Assembly (NCBI GenBank): GCA_030539565.1
Contig: JAUNYA010000003.1
Location: forward strand, 1-33,460
Length of the DNA: 33,460 nucleotides
From: Thermoplasmata archaeon
GTDB lineage: Archaea > Thermoplasmatota > Thermoplasmata > Methanomassiliicoccales > Methanomethylophilaceae
Reading direction: 5' to 3'
In this document: positions 148-6,005 of the stretch, in pieces
Layout of the letters: each line of letters starts with the position of its first letter
How positions within the stretch are numbered: position 1 is the stretch's first letter
Notes under the pieces: generated by a model
What the model was told of the DNA's origin: nothing
Databases searched by the model: none
Seen by the model: only the letters and a program-made list of their open reading frames with translations
Program-made: the position numbers and the translations under genes

Positions 148-1536
148 ATGGCAGCAACAAGGCCCCTCACAATCCCCGACGTCTACGACAGGTTCGTCAG
201 GGGGAAGAAAGTCAAGGTCGAGGACTGGGACTACAAGGTCATCCCCGAGAACCTCACCGCACTCAAAGAGAAGTACAACATCAAGATCGAGGAGAACTCC
301 ATCATCCCCGAGGACAAGGAGCTCATCAACAACCTGTTCCAGGCCGGTCTCGAGATGCTCGTGACCACCGGATACTACTGCCAGGACCTGGGCCGCGTCA
401 TGCACGTGACCGAGGAGGAGGTCTGGGAGGGAATCAAGAAGACCCCGACCAAGCTCATCCTGGGAGAGGGGAAGGACATCGCCAGGTTCTACCCCAGGCA
501 CGGGAACTCCTCCGTGAAGCCCATCATCCAGGGCGGACCCACGGGATCCCCGATCTCCGAGGACGTGTTCGTGCAGATCATGCAGTCCTACGCCCAGGAG
601 GGAATCGTCGACGACCTCGTGAACGGAGTCATGACCACCATCGAGGGCCACCCCGCGAAGTCCAAGACCCCCTACGAGATCCGCGCCACCATGGCGGAGC
701 TAAGGGCCACGAAAGAGGCCCGTGTCAGGGCCGGAAGGCCCGGCCTCGGTGTTTAGGGACCCGAGACACCGCTCTCCGAGGCGGCACGTCTCTGCGCAGA
801 CCTCCCCAACGCGGGCCACAGGATCACCGACGCCCACGAGTGCTCCCAGCTCAACGAGCTGAAGATGGACATGACCGGACTCAACATGCTGGCCGGCTGG
901 ACCACCGTCGGAGACACCATCATGATCGAGCAGATGCCCATCCTCGGTGGATACACCGGAGGAGTCGAGGAGACCGCCATCTGCGACGTTGCGACCACAC
1001 TCGGTTCCTTCGCCTGCTTCAGCGGAAACTTCCACCTCGACGGACCCATCCACATCAGGTGGGGAACCACGATGGCCAGGGGAACCCTCCAGGTCGCTGC
1101 CCACGCCGCTGCCGCCATCGACGCCAACACCGACCTGCTCCTCGCCAACCAGTACTACCCCATCGCCGGCCCCTGCACCGAGATGTGCCTGCTGGAGACC
1201 GCCGCCCAGGCGATCACCGACACCGCGTCCGGAAGGGAGCTCCTGTCCGGATCCGCCGCCGCCAAGGGTGTCGTCCAGGACAAGACCACCGGAATGGAGG
1301 CCAGGATCATGGGAGACGCCGCCATCGCGACCGCCGGCATGAAGATCTCCGACGTCAACGAGATCCTGAACAAGCTGGTCCCGTCCTACGAGGCGCACTA
1401 CACCGACGCGCCCCAGGGCAAGACCTTCCAGGAGTGCTACGACGTCAAGACCGTCAAGCCCACCCAGGAGTACCTGGACGTGTACGACAAGGCCGTCGCC
1501 TCCCTCAGGGATCTCGGCCTCGACATCAAGCACTGA
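148..1536 (+). CDS. mtmB: Monomethylamine:corrinoid methyltransferase MtmB, copy 1, with in-frame amber (pyrrolysine 203)
   Basis: Transfers the methyl group of monomethylamine to the Co(I) corrinoid of MtmC, the first step of methanogenesis from methylamine. Two ORF pieces (148-756 and 757-1536) are in the same frame and separated only by TAG at 754-756. Read through, the protein has 462 residues with pyrrolysine at 203. MtmB of Methanosarcina is about 458 residues with Pyl202, whereas the dimethylamine and trimethylamine enzymes carry Pyl much later, so this is MtmB. Residues after the amber codon (GPETPLS, then EQMPILGGYTGG, HLDGPIHIRWG, NQYYPIAGPC) follow the family closely, which excludes a pseudogene. 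The ATG at 148 is set by the AAGGAGG at 133-139. It follows mtmC by 34 nt and probably shares its transcript. The true stop is TGA. Confidence 0.95.
754..756 (+). other. Amber codon read as pyrrolysine (mtmB1)
   Basis: TAG in frame, flanked by conserved MtmB sequence on both sides (RPGLGV before, GPETPLS after). The position matches Pyl202 of Methanosarcina MtmB. Needs the pyl tRNA and synthetase, which are not in this window. Confidence 0.93.
769..784 (+). promoter_or_regulatory. Candidate PYLIS-like hairpin downstream of the amber codon (mtmB1)
   Basis: CCGC (769-772) can pair with GCGG (781-784) across an 8-nt loop, starting 13 nt after TAG. An equivalent hairpin at the same distance occurs in mtmB2. 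Because the two genes encode similar residues here, the pairing may be a by-product of protein conservation. Confidence 0.35.
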
Positions 1537-1647: not shown

Positions 1648-2085
1648 TCACCGGGACGAGAGCCTCTGGCAGAGGAGAACGAACTCCGCCGGATTAGACG
1701 GGGCCTCGCCGCTGGACCTTATTATCTGGAACCCGCCCTCCGCGTAGTGGTTCATGAGTGCGCGGCCCTCCTCGCTGAAACCCTCGGCTGCGTCGGTGAG
1801 CCTGGTGAAGAGGTCTGTGATCGTGTCCCTGGAGTAGCCGATGCCGCGGCGCTCGATCTCGGACGAGACGAGGGCGGCCGCCATCTCCCCCATGACGCCG
1901 TTGTACGGGCGGTCCACGGTCTTGGAGAACTCGACGGTCCTGGCCTCGGAGGAGACGCGGCGGTTCGACATGCCGGTCATGGCGCACATGTAATAGTAAT
2001 CCCAGAGCGAGAACCCGGCGCCCTTCCACCCGTCGGCGACGCTCTTGTAGAGCGCCCTGGAGTCGCGGGATATGCGGTACGTCAT
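1648..2085 (-). CDS. Uncharacterised 145-aa protein, partner of the SMC-like ATPase
   Basis: Not recognised with confidence. The protein is soluble and mostly alpha-helical. It starts MTYRISRDSRALYKSV, has an aromatic run WDYYYMCAMTG near residue 28, then a helix containing EMAAALVSSEIERRGI, and ends in NHYAEGGFQII and an AEFVLLCQRL helix. The ATG overlaps the TGA of the upstream gene by 4 nt (ATGA at 2082-2085), so the two are translationally coupled and probably form a complex. The layout of a SMC/RecF-like ATPase followed by a small helical protein resembles DNA-modification or defence gene pairs such as DndD-DndE, but no family assignment is claimed. The gene ends in TGA, convergent with mtmB1, with hairpins between them. 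Confidence 0.75.
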   Translation of the reverse strand: MTYRISRDSRALYKSVADGWKGAGFSLWDYYYMCAMTGMSNRRVSSEARTVEFSKTVDRPYNGVMGEMAAALVSSEIERRGIGYSRDTITDLFTRLTDAAEGFSEEGRALMNHYAEGGFQIIRSSGEAPSNPAEFVLLCQRLSSR

Positions 2086-3566
2086 CGCTCCGCCTCCCTG
2101 AATTCCATGAGGGCGTCCAGCTCCCCGGACGGGTCGGTGACCACGAGCGCCGGCGAACCGTGCGACATGCCGGAGACCGCCGCCAGGTAGAGCGCGTTGA
2201 CTGTGGCCGACCCGACGTCGGAGTACAGCTCGGCCACCGAGTCCCCGGAGATCCTGAAGGGCTCGTTGACGTCGTAGGACCTGAACGCCCCGTTGACGGT
2301 CTCCGCGCCGGAGACCCTCAGGGCGGATACTACCATGTCGCGCGCATCCGCGAGTATCTCCTCGAGGACGGCGGCCCTCTTCTGCATCTCCTGGCCCTTG
2401 ATCGATGCGTCCAGATCCCTCCTGGCCTCCTGTATGGCGGCCCTGCACGCCGCGAGGTTGTTGTGCGGATCGTAATCGGAGCCGGGGCGGGTTATCATGT
2501 CGATCTCCATCTTCAGAGCCGCGGCCTCGTTGTTGTAGTAGGTGACCTGCGTCAGCGGGTCGGACACGCCGGCGGGGGCGTCCTCCTCGAGGCGCATGAG
2601 CTGCGGGGAGCGCTGGACGTCCCCGACGGTCTCCCTGACGGACCTTATGACCCCGTACGGGTGCCTAACGGACAGGCCGCTGAGCACCTCGGATACGTGG
2701 ATGCGGGAGCGGACGTCCATGTCCCTTCCGCAGATGCACTTGCTGTTGTACTCCAGCGCCCTCAGGTAGCCGGGCATGCTGCTGACCGGGTGGTCGATCC
2801 TCTGGATGTGGCTCTGGAGCGTGCTGATGGAATCGAAGAGCGGGGCGGAGAACAGGACGGGGTTGGTCAGCGGGTACACCGCATCGCCCATGGCGGACGA
2901 GTCCTCCGGAGTCATAGCGGCCAGACGATCCGCGACCACGGAGCGGGCGGCCTCGCCGACCCTGCCGACGGCGGCCATCTTCTCGTCCATGAGGTACTCC
3001 TGCCTGGTGAGGAGCTCTCCGCGGATCTCCTTGAGCTCGATCTCGTCGAAGCGGTGCCTGTTCAGTGCGGTCTGGAGCCTGGCGGAGCGCCCGGCCGGAT
3101 ACCTCCCGTTCTTGCCGGTCTCGGCGGCTACCACCTCGGAAAGCCTGGCCGAGGTCTCGTCGAAGGCGCCGATGCGCACCGGCCCCTCGAGGACCGCGCG
3201 CTCCGCATCGCTTCCGAAGACCCTGCGACCGAGGTCGCCGACGTCCAGGAAGGCGTTGCGGGCCGGACCGGGATGCTGATCGATGGAGCAGGCCCCCGAA
3301 TCGGGGTCCATCGAGATACGTGCCCTGCGGGAACCGTCCAGCTCCAGATCGACGACCGTTCCGCCGGAGCCGCAGACCGACCTGGCGTCGGAGGGGTCCG
3401 GGTCGTCGCCGGACAGGACGGACCGGATGATCCTCGAAAGACGGTCGCCTCCGGGCCCGCGGATAACCACGAGCCTCCCGGAGCCGACGGCGACGCTCCA
3501 TACCGAGAGTCCGTCGGATACGCCGTCGGCCTCGATCTTCCTGATCCGAGAGTCCAAGCATATCAC
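2082..3566 (-). CDS. SMC/RecF/DndD-like ATPase with degenerate nucleotide-binding motifs
   Basis: A 494-residue protein with the layout of a short SMC/RecF-like ABC ATPase. Near the N-terminus RLVVIRGPGGDRLSRII (31-47) sits where Walker A should be, but the invariant lysine of GxxGxGKS is replaced by leucine. Helical, probably coiled-coil segments occur at about 165-215 and 340-410. Between them CICGRDMD (277-284) resembles the zinc-hook-like CxCG turn of DndD/RecF relatives. Near the C-terminus PALVVTDPSGELD (472-484) resembles Walker B plus D-loop, without a clear LSGG signature. The family normally couples ATP to DNA binding; catalysis here is doubtful. The chosen start is a GTG at 3566 with no clear ribosome binding site, and translation may instead enter from the upstream frame starting at 3747 (see that entry). 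It overlaps the next gene by 4 nt. Confidence 0.7.
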   Translation of the reverse strand: MICLDSRIRKIEADGVSDGLSVWSVAVGSGRLVVIRGPGGDRLSRIIRSVLSGDDPDPSDARSVCGSGGTVVDLELDGSRRARISMDPDSGACSIDQHPGPARNAFLDVGDLGRRVFGSDAERAVLEGPVRIGAFDETSARLSEVVAAETGKNGRYPAGRSARLQTALNRHRFDEIELKEIRGELLTRQEYLMDEKMAAVGRVGEAARSVVADRLAAMTPEDSSAMGDAVYPLTNPVLFSAPLFDSISTLQSHIQRIDHPVSSMPGYLRALEYNSKCICGRDMDVRSRIHVSEVLSGLSVRHPYGVIRSVRETVGDVQRSPQLMRLEEDAPAGVSDPLTQVTYYNNEAAALKMEIDMITRPGSDYDPHNNLAACRAAIQEARRDLDASIKGQEMQKRAAVLEEILADARDMVVSALRVSGAETVNGAFRSYDVNEPFRISGDSVAELYSDVGSATVNALYLAAVSGMSHGSPALVVTDPSGELDALMEFREAER

Positions 3567-3747
3567 CGGTCATGGTATCGATGAGCGATAGGAAGTCTTC
3601 GTCCAGGCAGTTGCCGGCCGCGACGTTCCCGACGAGAGCCGCCAGTGGTGCCACGAAATCCTCGTCCTGCCCGTGGGATGCGCACGATGCTGATATGGCG
3701 TCAAGGAAAAGGGACCGCAGATCGCGGTCTCCGGGCACATCCTCCAT
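3567..3747 (-). CDS. Short N-terminal frame upstream of the ATPase (possible separate peptide or frameshifted N-terminus)
   Basis: An ATG at 3747 lies 27 nt downstream of the centre of a TATA box (3771-3776, minus strand), the spacing of a leaderless archaeal transcript. It opens about 60 residues, beginning MEDVPGDRDLRSLFLDAIS and including DFVAPLAALVGNV and DEDFLSLIDTMTGDML. The frame then enters the ATPase gene one base out of phase and stays open to 2665, but beyond about residue 65 it becomes arginine-rich and looks like a shadow. The start signal is convincing while the end is not. Either this is the true N-terminus of the ATPase joined through a frameshift (real, programmed or an assembly error), or it is a separate small protein whose end is obscured. 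Confidence 0.45.
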
Positions 3748-3854: not shown

Positions 3855-3882
3855 TTATAAAACGCACGCGCACGCGCGTTTT
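3855..3882 (+). promoter_or_regulatory. TATA box and overlapping palindrome upstream of mtmB2
   Basis: TTATAAAA at 3855-3862 is a good archaeal TATA box, predicting a start near 3884 and a 5' leader of about 70 nt. Overlapping it is an inverted repeat, AAAACGC (3859-3865) and GCGTTTT (3876-3882). The bases 3862-3879 alternate purine and pyrimidine without a break. The placement between TATA box and transcription start suits a repressor operator. A second weaker TATA-like element, CTTAAGTA at 3925-3932, lies 28 nt before the ATG and could give a leaderless mRNA. Confidence 0.5.
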
Positions 3883-3955
3883 AGGCCAGCAATCTTCCCG
3901 ATACGAGGTATGTCCAGCGATTGTCTTAAGTACCATCCCGAGAAATCCAAATCGG

Positions 3956-5335
3956 ATGACTGCCAAGAGGTACGTGGACATCTACGAAGCGTACGACCGC
4001 TTCTTCGAGGGGGAGAGGATCAGGGAGGACCAGTGGGACTACACTGTCGTCCCGAACAACGCCTCCCAGATGAAGGAGAAGTATGGCATCAAGTTCTCCA
4101 AGGACATCATCCCGACGGACGAGGACCTCTGCGAGCGCCTCTTCCTGGCCGGTCTCGAGATGCTCCTCGTCACCGGATTCTACAACACCGACCTCGGGCG
4201 CGTCATGAGGATCAGCGAGGACGAGCTGTTCGAGGGCCTCAAGATGGCCCCGCAGAAGCTCAAGCTCGGATCCGGGAAGGACGAGCGCGAGTGCGTGGCC
4301 AGGCGTGGCAACGACAGCCGCAAGCCCATCATCCAGGGCGGCCCCACCGGAGCTCCCGTCTCGGAGGGCATGTTCGTCCCCGTGATACGCTCCTACGCCC
4401 AGGAGCCCGTCGTCGACACCATCGTCAGCGGTGTCCTGAACACCGTGAACAACCACGCCGCTACGACCAACACGCCATGGGAGATCCGTGCGACGATGGC
4501 GGAGATCAGGTACGTCCGCGAGGCGTGCCTCATGTCGCAGCGCCCCGGGATGTGCATATAGGGACCCCAGACCCCGCTGTCCGCGGCGGGGAGGATCTCG
4601 TCGGACCTGACGCAGTACGGGATGAAGCCCTTCGACGCCCACGAGGTCTCGCAGCTCAACGAGATGAAGATGGACATGGCCGGCCTCAACATGCTTGCAG
4701 GCTGGGGCGCCAACGGCGACATCGTCATGATGGAGCAGATGCCCATCTTCGGCGGCTACGTCGGCGGAGTCGAGGAGACCGCGATCTGCGACGTCGCCAC
4801 CATGATCGCGTCGTTCGCCATCTTCGACTGCGACATCCACCTGGACGGGCCGATCCATATCAGGTGGGGCACCACATCCACCAGGGAGACCCTGCAGATT
4901 GCCGCCCACGCTGCAGCGGCGCTCGACCAGAACACCGACTTCCTGCTCGCGAACCAGTACTACACCCTGGCGGGACCGTGCACGCAGATGTGCCTGCTCG
5001 AGATCGCCGCCCAGGCGATGACCGACACCGCGTCGGGGAGGGAGCTGCTCTCCGGAGTGGCATCCGCCAAGGGGGTCGCCCAGAACATGACCACCGGCAT
5101 GGAGGCCAGGATGATGGGCGAGGTCTCGCTCGCCACCTGCGGCATGGACGTCGCGGATGTCAACCCGGTCATCGACAGGGTGGTCGGCCTCTACGAGAGG
5201 GACTTCGGGCACGCGCCCCAAGGCAAGCGCTTCCAGGACTGCTACGACGTCAAGGAGCTGGAGCCCACCGACGAGTACGTCGACCTCTACGACCAGACGA
5301 TCGACCTTCTCGGCAACTGCGGCCTCGACATGTGA
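3956..5335 (+). CDS. mtmB: Monomethylamine:corrinoid methyltransferase MtmB, copy 2, with in-frame amber (pyrrolysine 202)
   Basis: Second MtmB, 459 residues, with TAG at 4559-4561 exactly at codon 202, the Methanosarcina position. The reading frame continues to TGA at 5333-5335 with all family landmarks: KPIIQGGPTG, WEIRATMAE, then after the amber GPQTPLS, EQMPIFGGYVGG, HLDGPIHIRWG and TDTASGRELLSG. By eye it is only roughly half identical to copy 1 in the N-terminal part and closer in the C-terminal part, so it is an old paralogue and not a recent duplication. Unlike copy 1 it has no adjacent mtmC, has its own promoter region, and lacks a Shine-Dalgarno before the ATG. It must share a corrinoid protein encoded elsewhere. 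An upstream extension of the frame to 3572 has no promoter or homology support. Confidence 0.94.
4559..4561 (+). other. Amber codon read as pyrrolysine (mtmB2)
   Basis: In-frame TAG at codon 202, flanked by RPGMCI and GPQTPLS. Confidence 0.93.
4572..4591 (+). promoter_or_regulatory. Candidate PYLIS-like hairpin downstream of the amber codon (mtmB2)
   Basis: CCCCGC (4572-4577) pairs with GCGGGG (4586-4591). Its core starts 13 nt after TAG, as in mtmB1. Relative to copy 1 the stem is longer because paired positions changed together. Confidence 0.4.
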
Positions 5336-5337
5336 GT

Positions 5338-5676
5338 TCAGGCTTCCGGATCGTCGGACACCAGGTTCAGCCCGACGACGCCTCCGACTATCAGCGCGAT
5401 GCACGCCCATCCGGCCAGATTCAGCGTGTCATCGAAAGCGAGAACGCCCACCAGCACTGATCCGACCGCGCCGATCCCGACCCAGACCGCATAGCAAGGC
5501 CCCGTCGGGAGTCCCGCGCGGAACCCCATGTTGAGCAGGTACATGCTCACCGCCAGGAAGGCCAGCATCAGCACGACGTAGAGGATGTCGGTGAACCCGT
5601 CGGACATCTTCATGAAGGTGGCCCAGGCGGTCTCTGCGACCCCTCCGGCAAGCACCCACATCCATCCGCGGTTCAT
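5338..5676 (-). CDS. SMR-family small multidrug/guanidinium exporter subunit (second gene of the pair)
   Basis: A 112-residue inner-membrane protein with four predicted transmembrane helices. It has the SMR signature GGVAETAWATFMKMSDGF near the N-terminus, containing the essential glutamate (E15) of helix 1, and YAVWVGIGAVGSVLVGVLAF in helix 3. SMR proteins exchange protons for cationic drugs or guanidinium. Two adjacent SMR genes with a 4-nt ATGA overlap usually encode an antiparallel heterodimer (EbrAB, YkkCD type). The helix 3 end carries DD where many members have GE. Substrate cannot be told from sequence. The gene ends 2 nt after mtmB2, convergent with it. Confidence 0.85.
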   Translation of the reverse strand: MNRGWMWVLAGGVAETAWATFMKMSDGFTDILYVVLMLAFLAVSMYLLNMGFRAGLPTGPCYAVWVGIGAVGSVLVGVLAFDDTLNLAGWACIALIVGGVVGLNLVSDDPEA

Positions 5677-6005
5677 TGCGAAGCCCCCGCGAAAAGCTCG
5701 AGCCCGACCACTCCGGCCAGGATCATGCCGACGAACACCATCTTCAGCGCCCCGACCCTCTCCCCGTACAGCAGGTACCCGGCAATCATCGTGCAGACCG
5801 CACCGATGCCCGTCCAGACGGCATACGCCACTCCGACGGACATGGTCTTCATGCCCATGCCCATCAGGCAGGGGCTGAGGACGGCGAAGAACACTGCGGC
5901 CAACCCCCATGCGAGGGTGCGCCTCTCGTCGAACCTCTTGAGTGCGACGACCCACACGGGCTCCAGGAGCCCGCCGGCGACAACCCAGAGAATGGCCGCG
6001 TCCAT
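5673..6005 (-). CDS. SMR-family small multidrug/guanidinium exporter subunit (first gene of the pair)
   Basis: A 110-residue, four-helix SMR protein. The helix 1 glutamate is in VAGGLLEPVWVVALKRFDE and helix 3 contains YAVWTGIGAVCTMIAGYLLYGE, closer to the family consensus than its partner. Its TGA overlaps the start of the second SMR gene (ATGA, 5673-5676), which argues for a coupled heterodimer. The ATG at 6005 lies 25 nt from the centre of a TATA box at 6027-6033 on the minus strand, so the mRNA is probably leaderless. It is divergent from the DtxR-type regulator at 6163, about 157 nt away, so regulation by that protein or by metal is possible but unproven. Confidence 0.85.
   Translation of the reverse strand: MDAAILWVVAGGLLEPVWVVALKRFDERRTLAWGLAAVFFAVLSPCLMGMGMKTMSVGVAYAVWTGIGAVCTMIAGYLLYGERVGALKMVFVGMILAGVVGLELFAGASQ

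Follow-up and report, generated by a model that had tools for sequence, protein, structure and literature searches.

A three-gene unit between two pyrrolysine mtmB genes as a diverged relative of the CxC-ATPase/DndE core, with lost ATP motifs

What is an SMC-like protein with an apparently dead ATP site doing between two monomethylamine methyltransferase genes? The question is raised by a 33,460 nt stretch of DNA from a gut-type methanogen of the Methanomassiliicoccales, here called the window, in which an earlier note had described a minus-strand unit of two translationally coupled genes lying as an island between mtmB1 and mtmB2 (Table 1). In six congeners the two mtmB genes are adjacent with a gap of 235-340 bp, whereas they are 2.45 kb apart in the window, hence we conclude that the unit was inserted into an existing pair. 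The insertion point lies after a terminator-like hairpin of mtmB1, and the unit is divergent from mtmB2. On the minus strand, two overlapping genes of the small multidrug resistance (SMR) type at 5338-6005 probably encode a paired SMR transporter; the first of these was tested against Pfam.

Table 1. Features of the locus in window coordinates
Feature	Position	Strand	Remarks
mtmB1	148-1536		Monomethylamine methyltransferase; in-frame TAG (pyrrolysine) near 754-756
PbeD-like ORF	2085..1648	minus	145 aa; clade-2 DndE-like; 4-nt ATGA overlap with the PbeC-like stop
PbeC-like ORF	3566..2082	minus	GTG start, 494 aa; CxC-type ABC protein, coiled coil with CICG hook motif
Small first gene	3565..3747	minus	About 61 aa recognisable; PbeB/'SP' position; lacks an in-frame stop where it should end, open to 2665
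TATA-like AAACTATAAA	3780-3771	minus	Candidate promoter of the trio, from sequence only; the first ATG (3747) follows after about 25 nt
Imperfect palindrome TAAAACGCACG-cgca-CGCGCGTTTTA	3858-3883		From repeat search; between the trio and mtmB2, touches the mtmB2 TATA-like element
mtmB2	3957-5335		Monomethylamine methyltransferase; in-frame TAG (pyrrolysine) near 4559-4561; tandem with mtmB1

It should be noted that this GC-rich stretch is open on both strands, the strand opposite the PbeC-like region carrying an ORF of 474 aa, so that the openness of a frame is by itself no evidence of coding. The GC content at third codon positions is however 0.82-0.95 through most of the PbeC-like frame and 0.90-0.94 in the PbeD-like frame, and its peak changes frame at the junction of the two. 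Together with homologues in two other genomes this demonstrates that both ORFs are truly coding, and an artefact of GC-rich DNA is excluded on the same grounds. The 4-nt overlap that was taken to couple the two genes is present, and the TATA-like element in Table 1 is consistent with the suggestion that the unit has a promoter of its own.

A sequence search of 147 genomes of the order found the pair as a unit in the window genome (G000) and in G063 and G066, which share its family but belong to another genus; the remaining 144 of the 147 are without it. A profile built from the three sequences revealed no further copies in the order, and a search of the contigs returned the same two loci only. 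When the profile was run on 390 genomes of the phylum, it gave only marginal matches outside the trio (E 0.003-0.009), which we do not find credible, and no relatives turned up in viral contigs or in the phage and plasmid collections searched.

All three copies consist of a small gene, the ATPase-like gene and a gene for a protein of 145-158 aa, the small gene (54-61 aa) lying directly upstream of the PbeC-like gene. The coupled pair therefore stands as described, while a third member between 3747 and about 3565 had been overlooked. In G066 (L007) and in L055, the G063 contig abutting L008, a separate gene of 54-57 aa precedes the ATPase, and the window frame opening at 3747 matches these genes in the pattern QDEDF...LxALVGNxAAxNxLDEDFxSLI. 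The local alignment scores were 66 against L007:13410-13571(-) and 92 against L055:71-292(-), and none of 2000 shuffles scored as high in either case (maxima 49 and 45, respectively). That the upstream ORF might be fused to the ATPase was rejected, as the relatives carry two separate genes, and the PbeC-like start is at about 3566 or 3557 and not at 3747. Compared with both relatives, the window small gene misses its stop through a 1-nt frame offset around 3550-3600 on the minus strand, either by a real frameshift or by an assembly error. No sequence similarity to canonical PbeB was detectable; PbeB-like genes are too divergent to be linked by sequence, and the gene is assigned to PbeB by position, size and linkage only.

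To which family does the trio belong? Searches of the single window proteins against Pfam, NCBIfam, PADLOC and PHROGs gave no significant family. The only useful match of these family searches was that of PADLOC PbeC to the G066 orthologue of the PbeC-like protein (E 0.0024). This match, with published work, pointed to the CxC ABC-ATPase systems. The CxC ABC-ATPase/DndE system of Rakesh et al. 2024 (PMC10853773) is the PbeABCD of Xiong et al. 2019 (PMC6459918). Canonical loci were taken from the Methanomassiliicoccales genomes G039, G072 and G103, from haloarchaeal and bacterial plasmids and from other Thermoplasmatota; the genes stand in the order A-B-C-D, and in most of the loci B, C and D overlap or lie close together.

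Profile-profile alignment (hhalign) of the PbeC-like protein with 20 canonical PbeC sequences gave a score of 101 (P 2.8e-12), whereas 15 column-shuffled controls reached at most 19; for the PbeD-like protein and 20 canonical PbeD the score was 51 (P 2e-8), with 15 controls up to 13.7. Both scores rose as true relatives were added, from 90 to 101 for PbeC and from 42 to 51 for PbeD on going from 14 to 20 canonical members. Over both rounds the shuffled controls stayed at or below 19.2 and 13.8, respectively, and when C was crossed with D the scores were 11-16. The canonical HMMs placed the three copies at ranks 1-3 among 700 ORFs, and an independent sequence search of the PDB matched the N-terminal lobe of Rad50 (5f3w, E 5e-4). 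The PbeD-like orthologues in G063 and G066 adjoin the PbeC-like gene and are 38-43% identical to the window protein, which has the motif YAxGG in common with canonical PbeD. Structure models from three sequences were of low confidence (pLDDT 61 and 39) and lend no support to the complex: the AlphaFold2 model of the PbeD-like protein, in which the two ribbon-helix-helix domains of clade-2 DndE were looked for, was that of pLDDT 61 and had no usable fold match, and the PDB fold search was empty. Judged by sequence, the trio has diverged from the CxC-ATPase/DndE core of systems of the PbeABCD type and keeps the PbeB position, PbeC and PbeD in canonical order. The likeness to DNA-modification and defence pairs proposed in the earlier note is borne out by homology to PbeC and clade-2 DndE; an SMC/Rad50/DndD-like architecture also holds, with the specific relative being the PbeC branch and not DndD proper, SbcC or RecF.

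The ATP motifs of this copy are gone. Where canonical relatives read IHGENGSGKTSLL, the window alignment shows IRGPGGDRLSRII, and in place of the Walker A consensus GxNGxGK[ST] the three copies have GPGGDRLS (window), AEKSRDLV and VEKDKDLT, confirming the missing lysine and the dead ATP site first seen in the window. The Walker B, previously called weak, is degenerate in the alignment (PALVVTDPSGELD in the window) and mostly lost or degenerate in the dead copies, the ABC signature is lost, and the head is cut short at its C-terminus. The window ATPase is about 80 residues shorter than its relatives. Walker A is present in none of the three dead copies, in 20 of 20 canonical PbeC and in 3 of 3 DndD, although the canonical sample was gathered by an intact-family profile or by similarity to an intact member and is thereby biased, so that the 20 of 20 does not show dead forms to be rare elsewhere. 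The PbeC-like protein is thus a derived, ATPase-dead relative and not a working member, and most simply the ATP chemistry was lost before the three copies split. The hook is kept: CICG or CVCG is found in all three copies, aligned with the canonical CICG, and the hook-like turn reported for the window reads KCICGR. From the alignment, CxCG is predicted to lie at the apex of the coiled coil.

Such losses might suggest a decaying Pbe remnant, caught before its reading frames break, in line with the loss of PbeA and of the ATP motifs, the missing stop of the window PbeB-like gene and the shortened PbeC-like C-terminus. The selection data speak against this. The G066 and G063 copies are 71% identical in protein and differ with a dS of 0.8, and the dN/dS (Nei-Gojobori) of the PbeC-like gene is 0.20 (N-terminal head 0.19, middle 0.17, C-terminus 0.31), equal to the 0.20 of the PbeD-like gene; the neighbouring PhoU/TrkA-type gene has 0.05 for comparison. 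A dN/dS of about 0.2 across the dead ATPase, the head included, means that the protein is maintained in the genus of G066 and G063. The window copy is saturated at synonymous sites relative to G066, and no dN/dS is given for it; its frames are nevertheless open with third-position GC up to 0.95, and the same trio is kept in two genera. We therefore regard decay of the trio as unlikely, while the lost stop of the small gene and the shorter ATPase could reflect early decay of the window copy.

The trio could still serve defence, with the dead proteins forming a sensor or specificity unit that recruits a nuclease or methylase encoded elsewhere. According to PMC10853773 and PMC6459918 the family is a counter-invader system, the intact-Walker homologues thus belonging to a conflict system and not to a housekeeping family. 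The trio is moreover patchy in occurrence, as the earlier note had expected, and inserted between genes, and other Methanomassiliicoccales carry complete Dnd or Pbe systems. The defence island also expected is absent: no PbeA, nuclease, modification gene or other defence gene adjoins any copy. Elsewhere in the three draft genomes the search for PbeA returned generic helicase-motif matches only (positive control G039, 2.7e-83), although the assemblies are 69-81% complete and might lack a partner that is encoded elsewhere. In addition, the family is supposed to be driven by ATP-dependent scanning, which is impossible here, and we find the recruiting unit a rather unlikely role.

Among the genomes of the order, DndC-DndD-DndE operons were seen in three Methanomassiliicoccales (L031, L032 and L033), with further ATPase-like genes nearby in two. 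A complete PbeABCD is carried by L034 (G103:C96); the ORFs around it make this contig look foreign, and it may be a contamination of the methanogen bin.

The neighbours allow for another reading, in which the trio acts as a repressor or chromatin factor for the adjacent methylamine genes. In G063 the trio occupies a different site, where it is divergent from an MttB-family gene that has no amber codon and from the accompanying gene for a corrinoid protein (L055 866-3011). A methyltransferase is thus the divergent neighbour at both insertion sites, which with two cases is suggestive, and methyltransferase genes are few (4 found in G000 and 6 in G063, fragments included). PMC10853773 further attributes ribbon-helix-helix DNA-binding domains to DndE, and the intergenic region shared with mtmB2 holds the palindrome of Table 1, which occurs only once in the 1.4-Mb assembly at two or fewer mismatches. 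Being found nowhere else in the genome, it would be a private operator at most; it could also be chance in GC-rich DNA, and no matching palindrome was found in G063. As there are only two sites, and the neighbours differ (a pyrrolysine mtmB and an MttB homologue lacking the amber codon), we consider this role quite unlikely. The MttB-family and corrinoid-protein genes of L055 may form a methyltransferase pair for a quaternary amine.

A dead subunit can have a dominant-negative effect. The trio, being an insertion, might then be a decoy that poisons active Pbe or Dnd complexes, as anti-defence cargo of a mobile element. At 1e-15 the three host genomes yielded no canonical PbeC, and no phage or plasmid homologue is known from the collections searched, hence we hold this to be very improbable.

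The reading that we favour, with about even chances, takes up the scaffold idea of the earlier note: the trio, acquired and lacking PbeA, would be a repurposed, ATP-independent DNA-binding scaffold that acts by occupancy with its ATPase dead. As expected from the family, the PbeC-like protein would still dimerise through its coiled coil and the CxCG zinc hook, and the dimer would hold two DndE-type DNA-binding subunits. The lack of ATP turnover excludes scanning and loop extrusion, so that binding or bridging of a static kind is left; unable to open and close by means of ATP, the complex would be a static, sequence-directed DNA clamp or bridge. Its occupancy might block replication or transcription of incoming DNA or repress a chromosomal promoter, with no loop extrusion or cleavage involved. 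Both the DNA binding and its target are inferred from the family only. Xiong et al. (PMC6459918) reported that PbeABCD halts the replication of virus DNA with no cleavage to be seen, and that low-level resistance remains when PbeBCD is present and PbeA is not. The weak protection by PbeBCD, along with a block that shows no cleavage, makes action without PbeA conceivable and gives occupancy a precedent of sorts.

Further we speculate, more tentatively, that the trio represents an SMC/Rad50-like lineage that gave up ATP, a zinc-hooked and DndE-guided DNA clamp kept by selection in methanogens after its split from the nuclease. ATP-driven action is the defining trait of SMC-like and DndD-like proteins, and the trio keeps the hook and the DNA-binding partner but neither the ATPase nor the nuclease. 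If the speculation is true, the trio would set DNA recognition apart from the motor and from cutting within this defence family. It also offers a simple three-protein test case for the role of PbeBCD without PbeA, which the 2019 and 2024 papers left open, and illustrates that dead relatives slip past current defence-gene models.

Among known systems, Rad50 resembles the PbeC-like protein in its detectable N-terminal lobe and in the zinc-hook principle, but the hook of the trio is CxC and not CxxC, the coiled coil is short, and there are no ATP motifs and no adjoining Mre11. RecF and SbcC do not fit in partner genes or hook type. The DndD-DndE core of Dnd also pairs an ABC coiled-coil ATPase with DndE, and the trio shows weak profile similarity to the DndE of G074. 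DndD however lacks the CxC hook and goes with clade-1 DndE and DndC, whereas the window trio has CxC and no DndC beside it; the DndD profile, of three sequences only, scored 29 against 90 for PbeC, and membership in DndD was rejected on these grounds. PbeABCD is matched in the order of small protein, CxC ATPase and DndE, in overlapping genes, in the CxCG hook, in YAxGG and in the sizes of the small genes. The trio departs from it in lacking PbeA (HKD nuclease and SF2 helicase) and nearby modification genes, in its erased ATP motifs, and in an identity of 11-14% to canonical members in the profile alignment. In the passages of PMC10853773 consulted, inactivity is described for other domains but not for the ATPase of a CxC protein. 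The CxC ABC-ATPase/DndE family is already known, and what appears to be new here is a PbeC-like form without ATP motifs.
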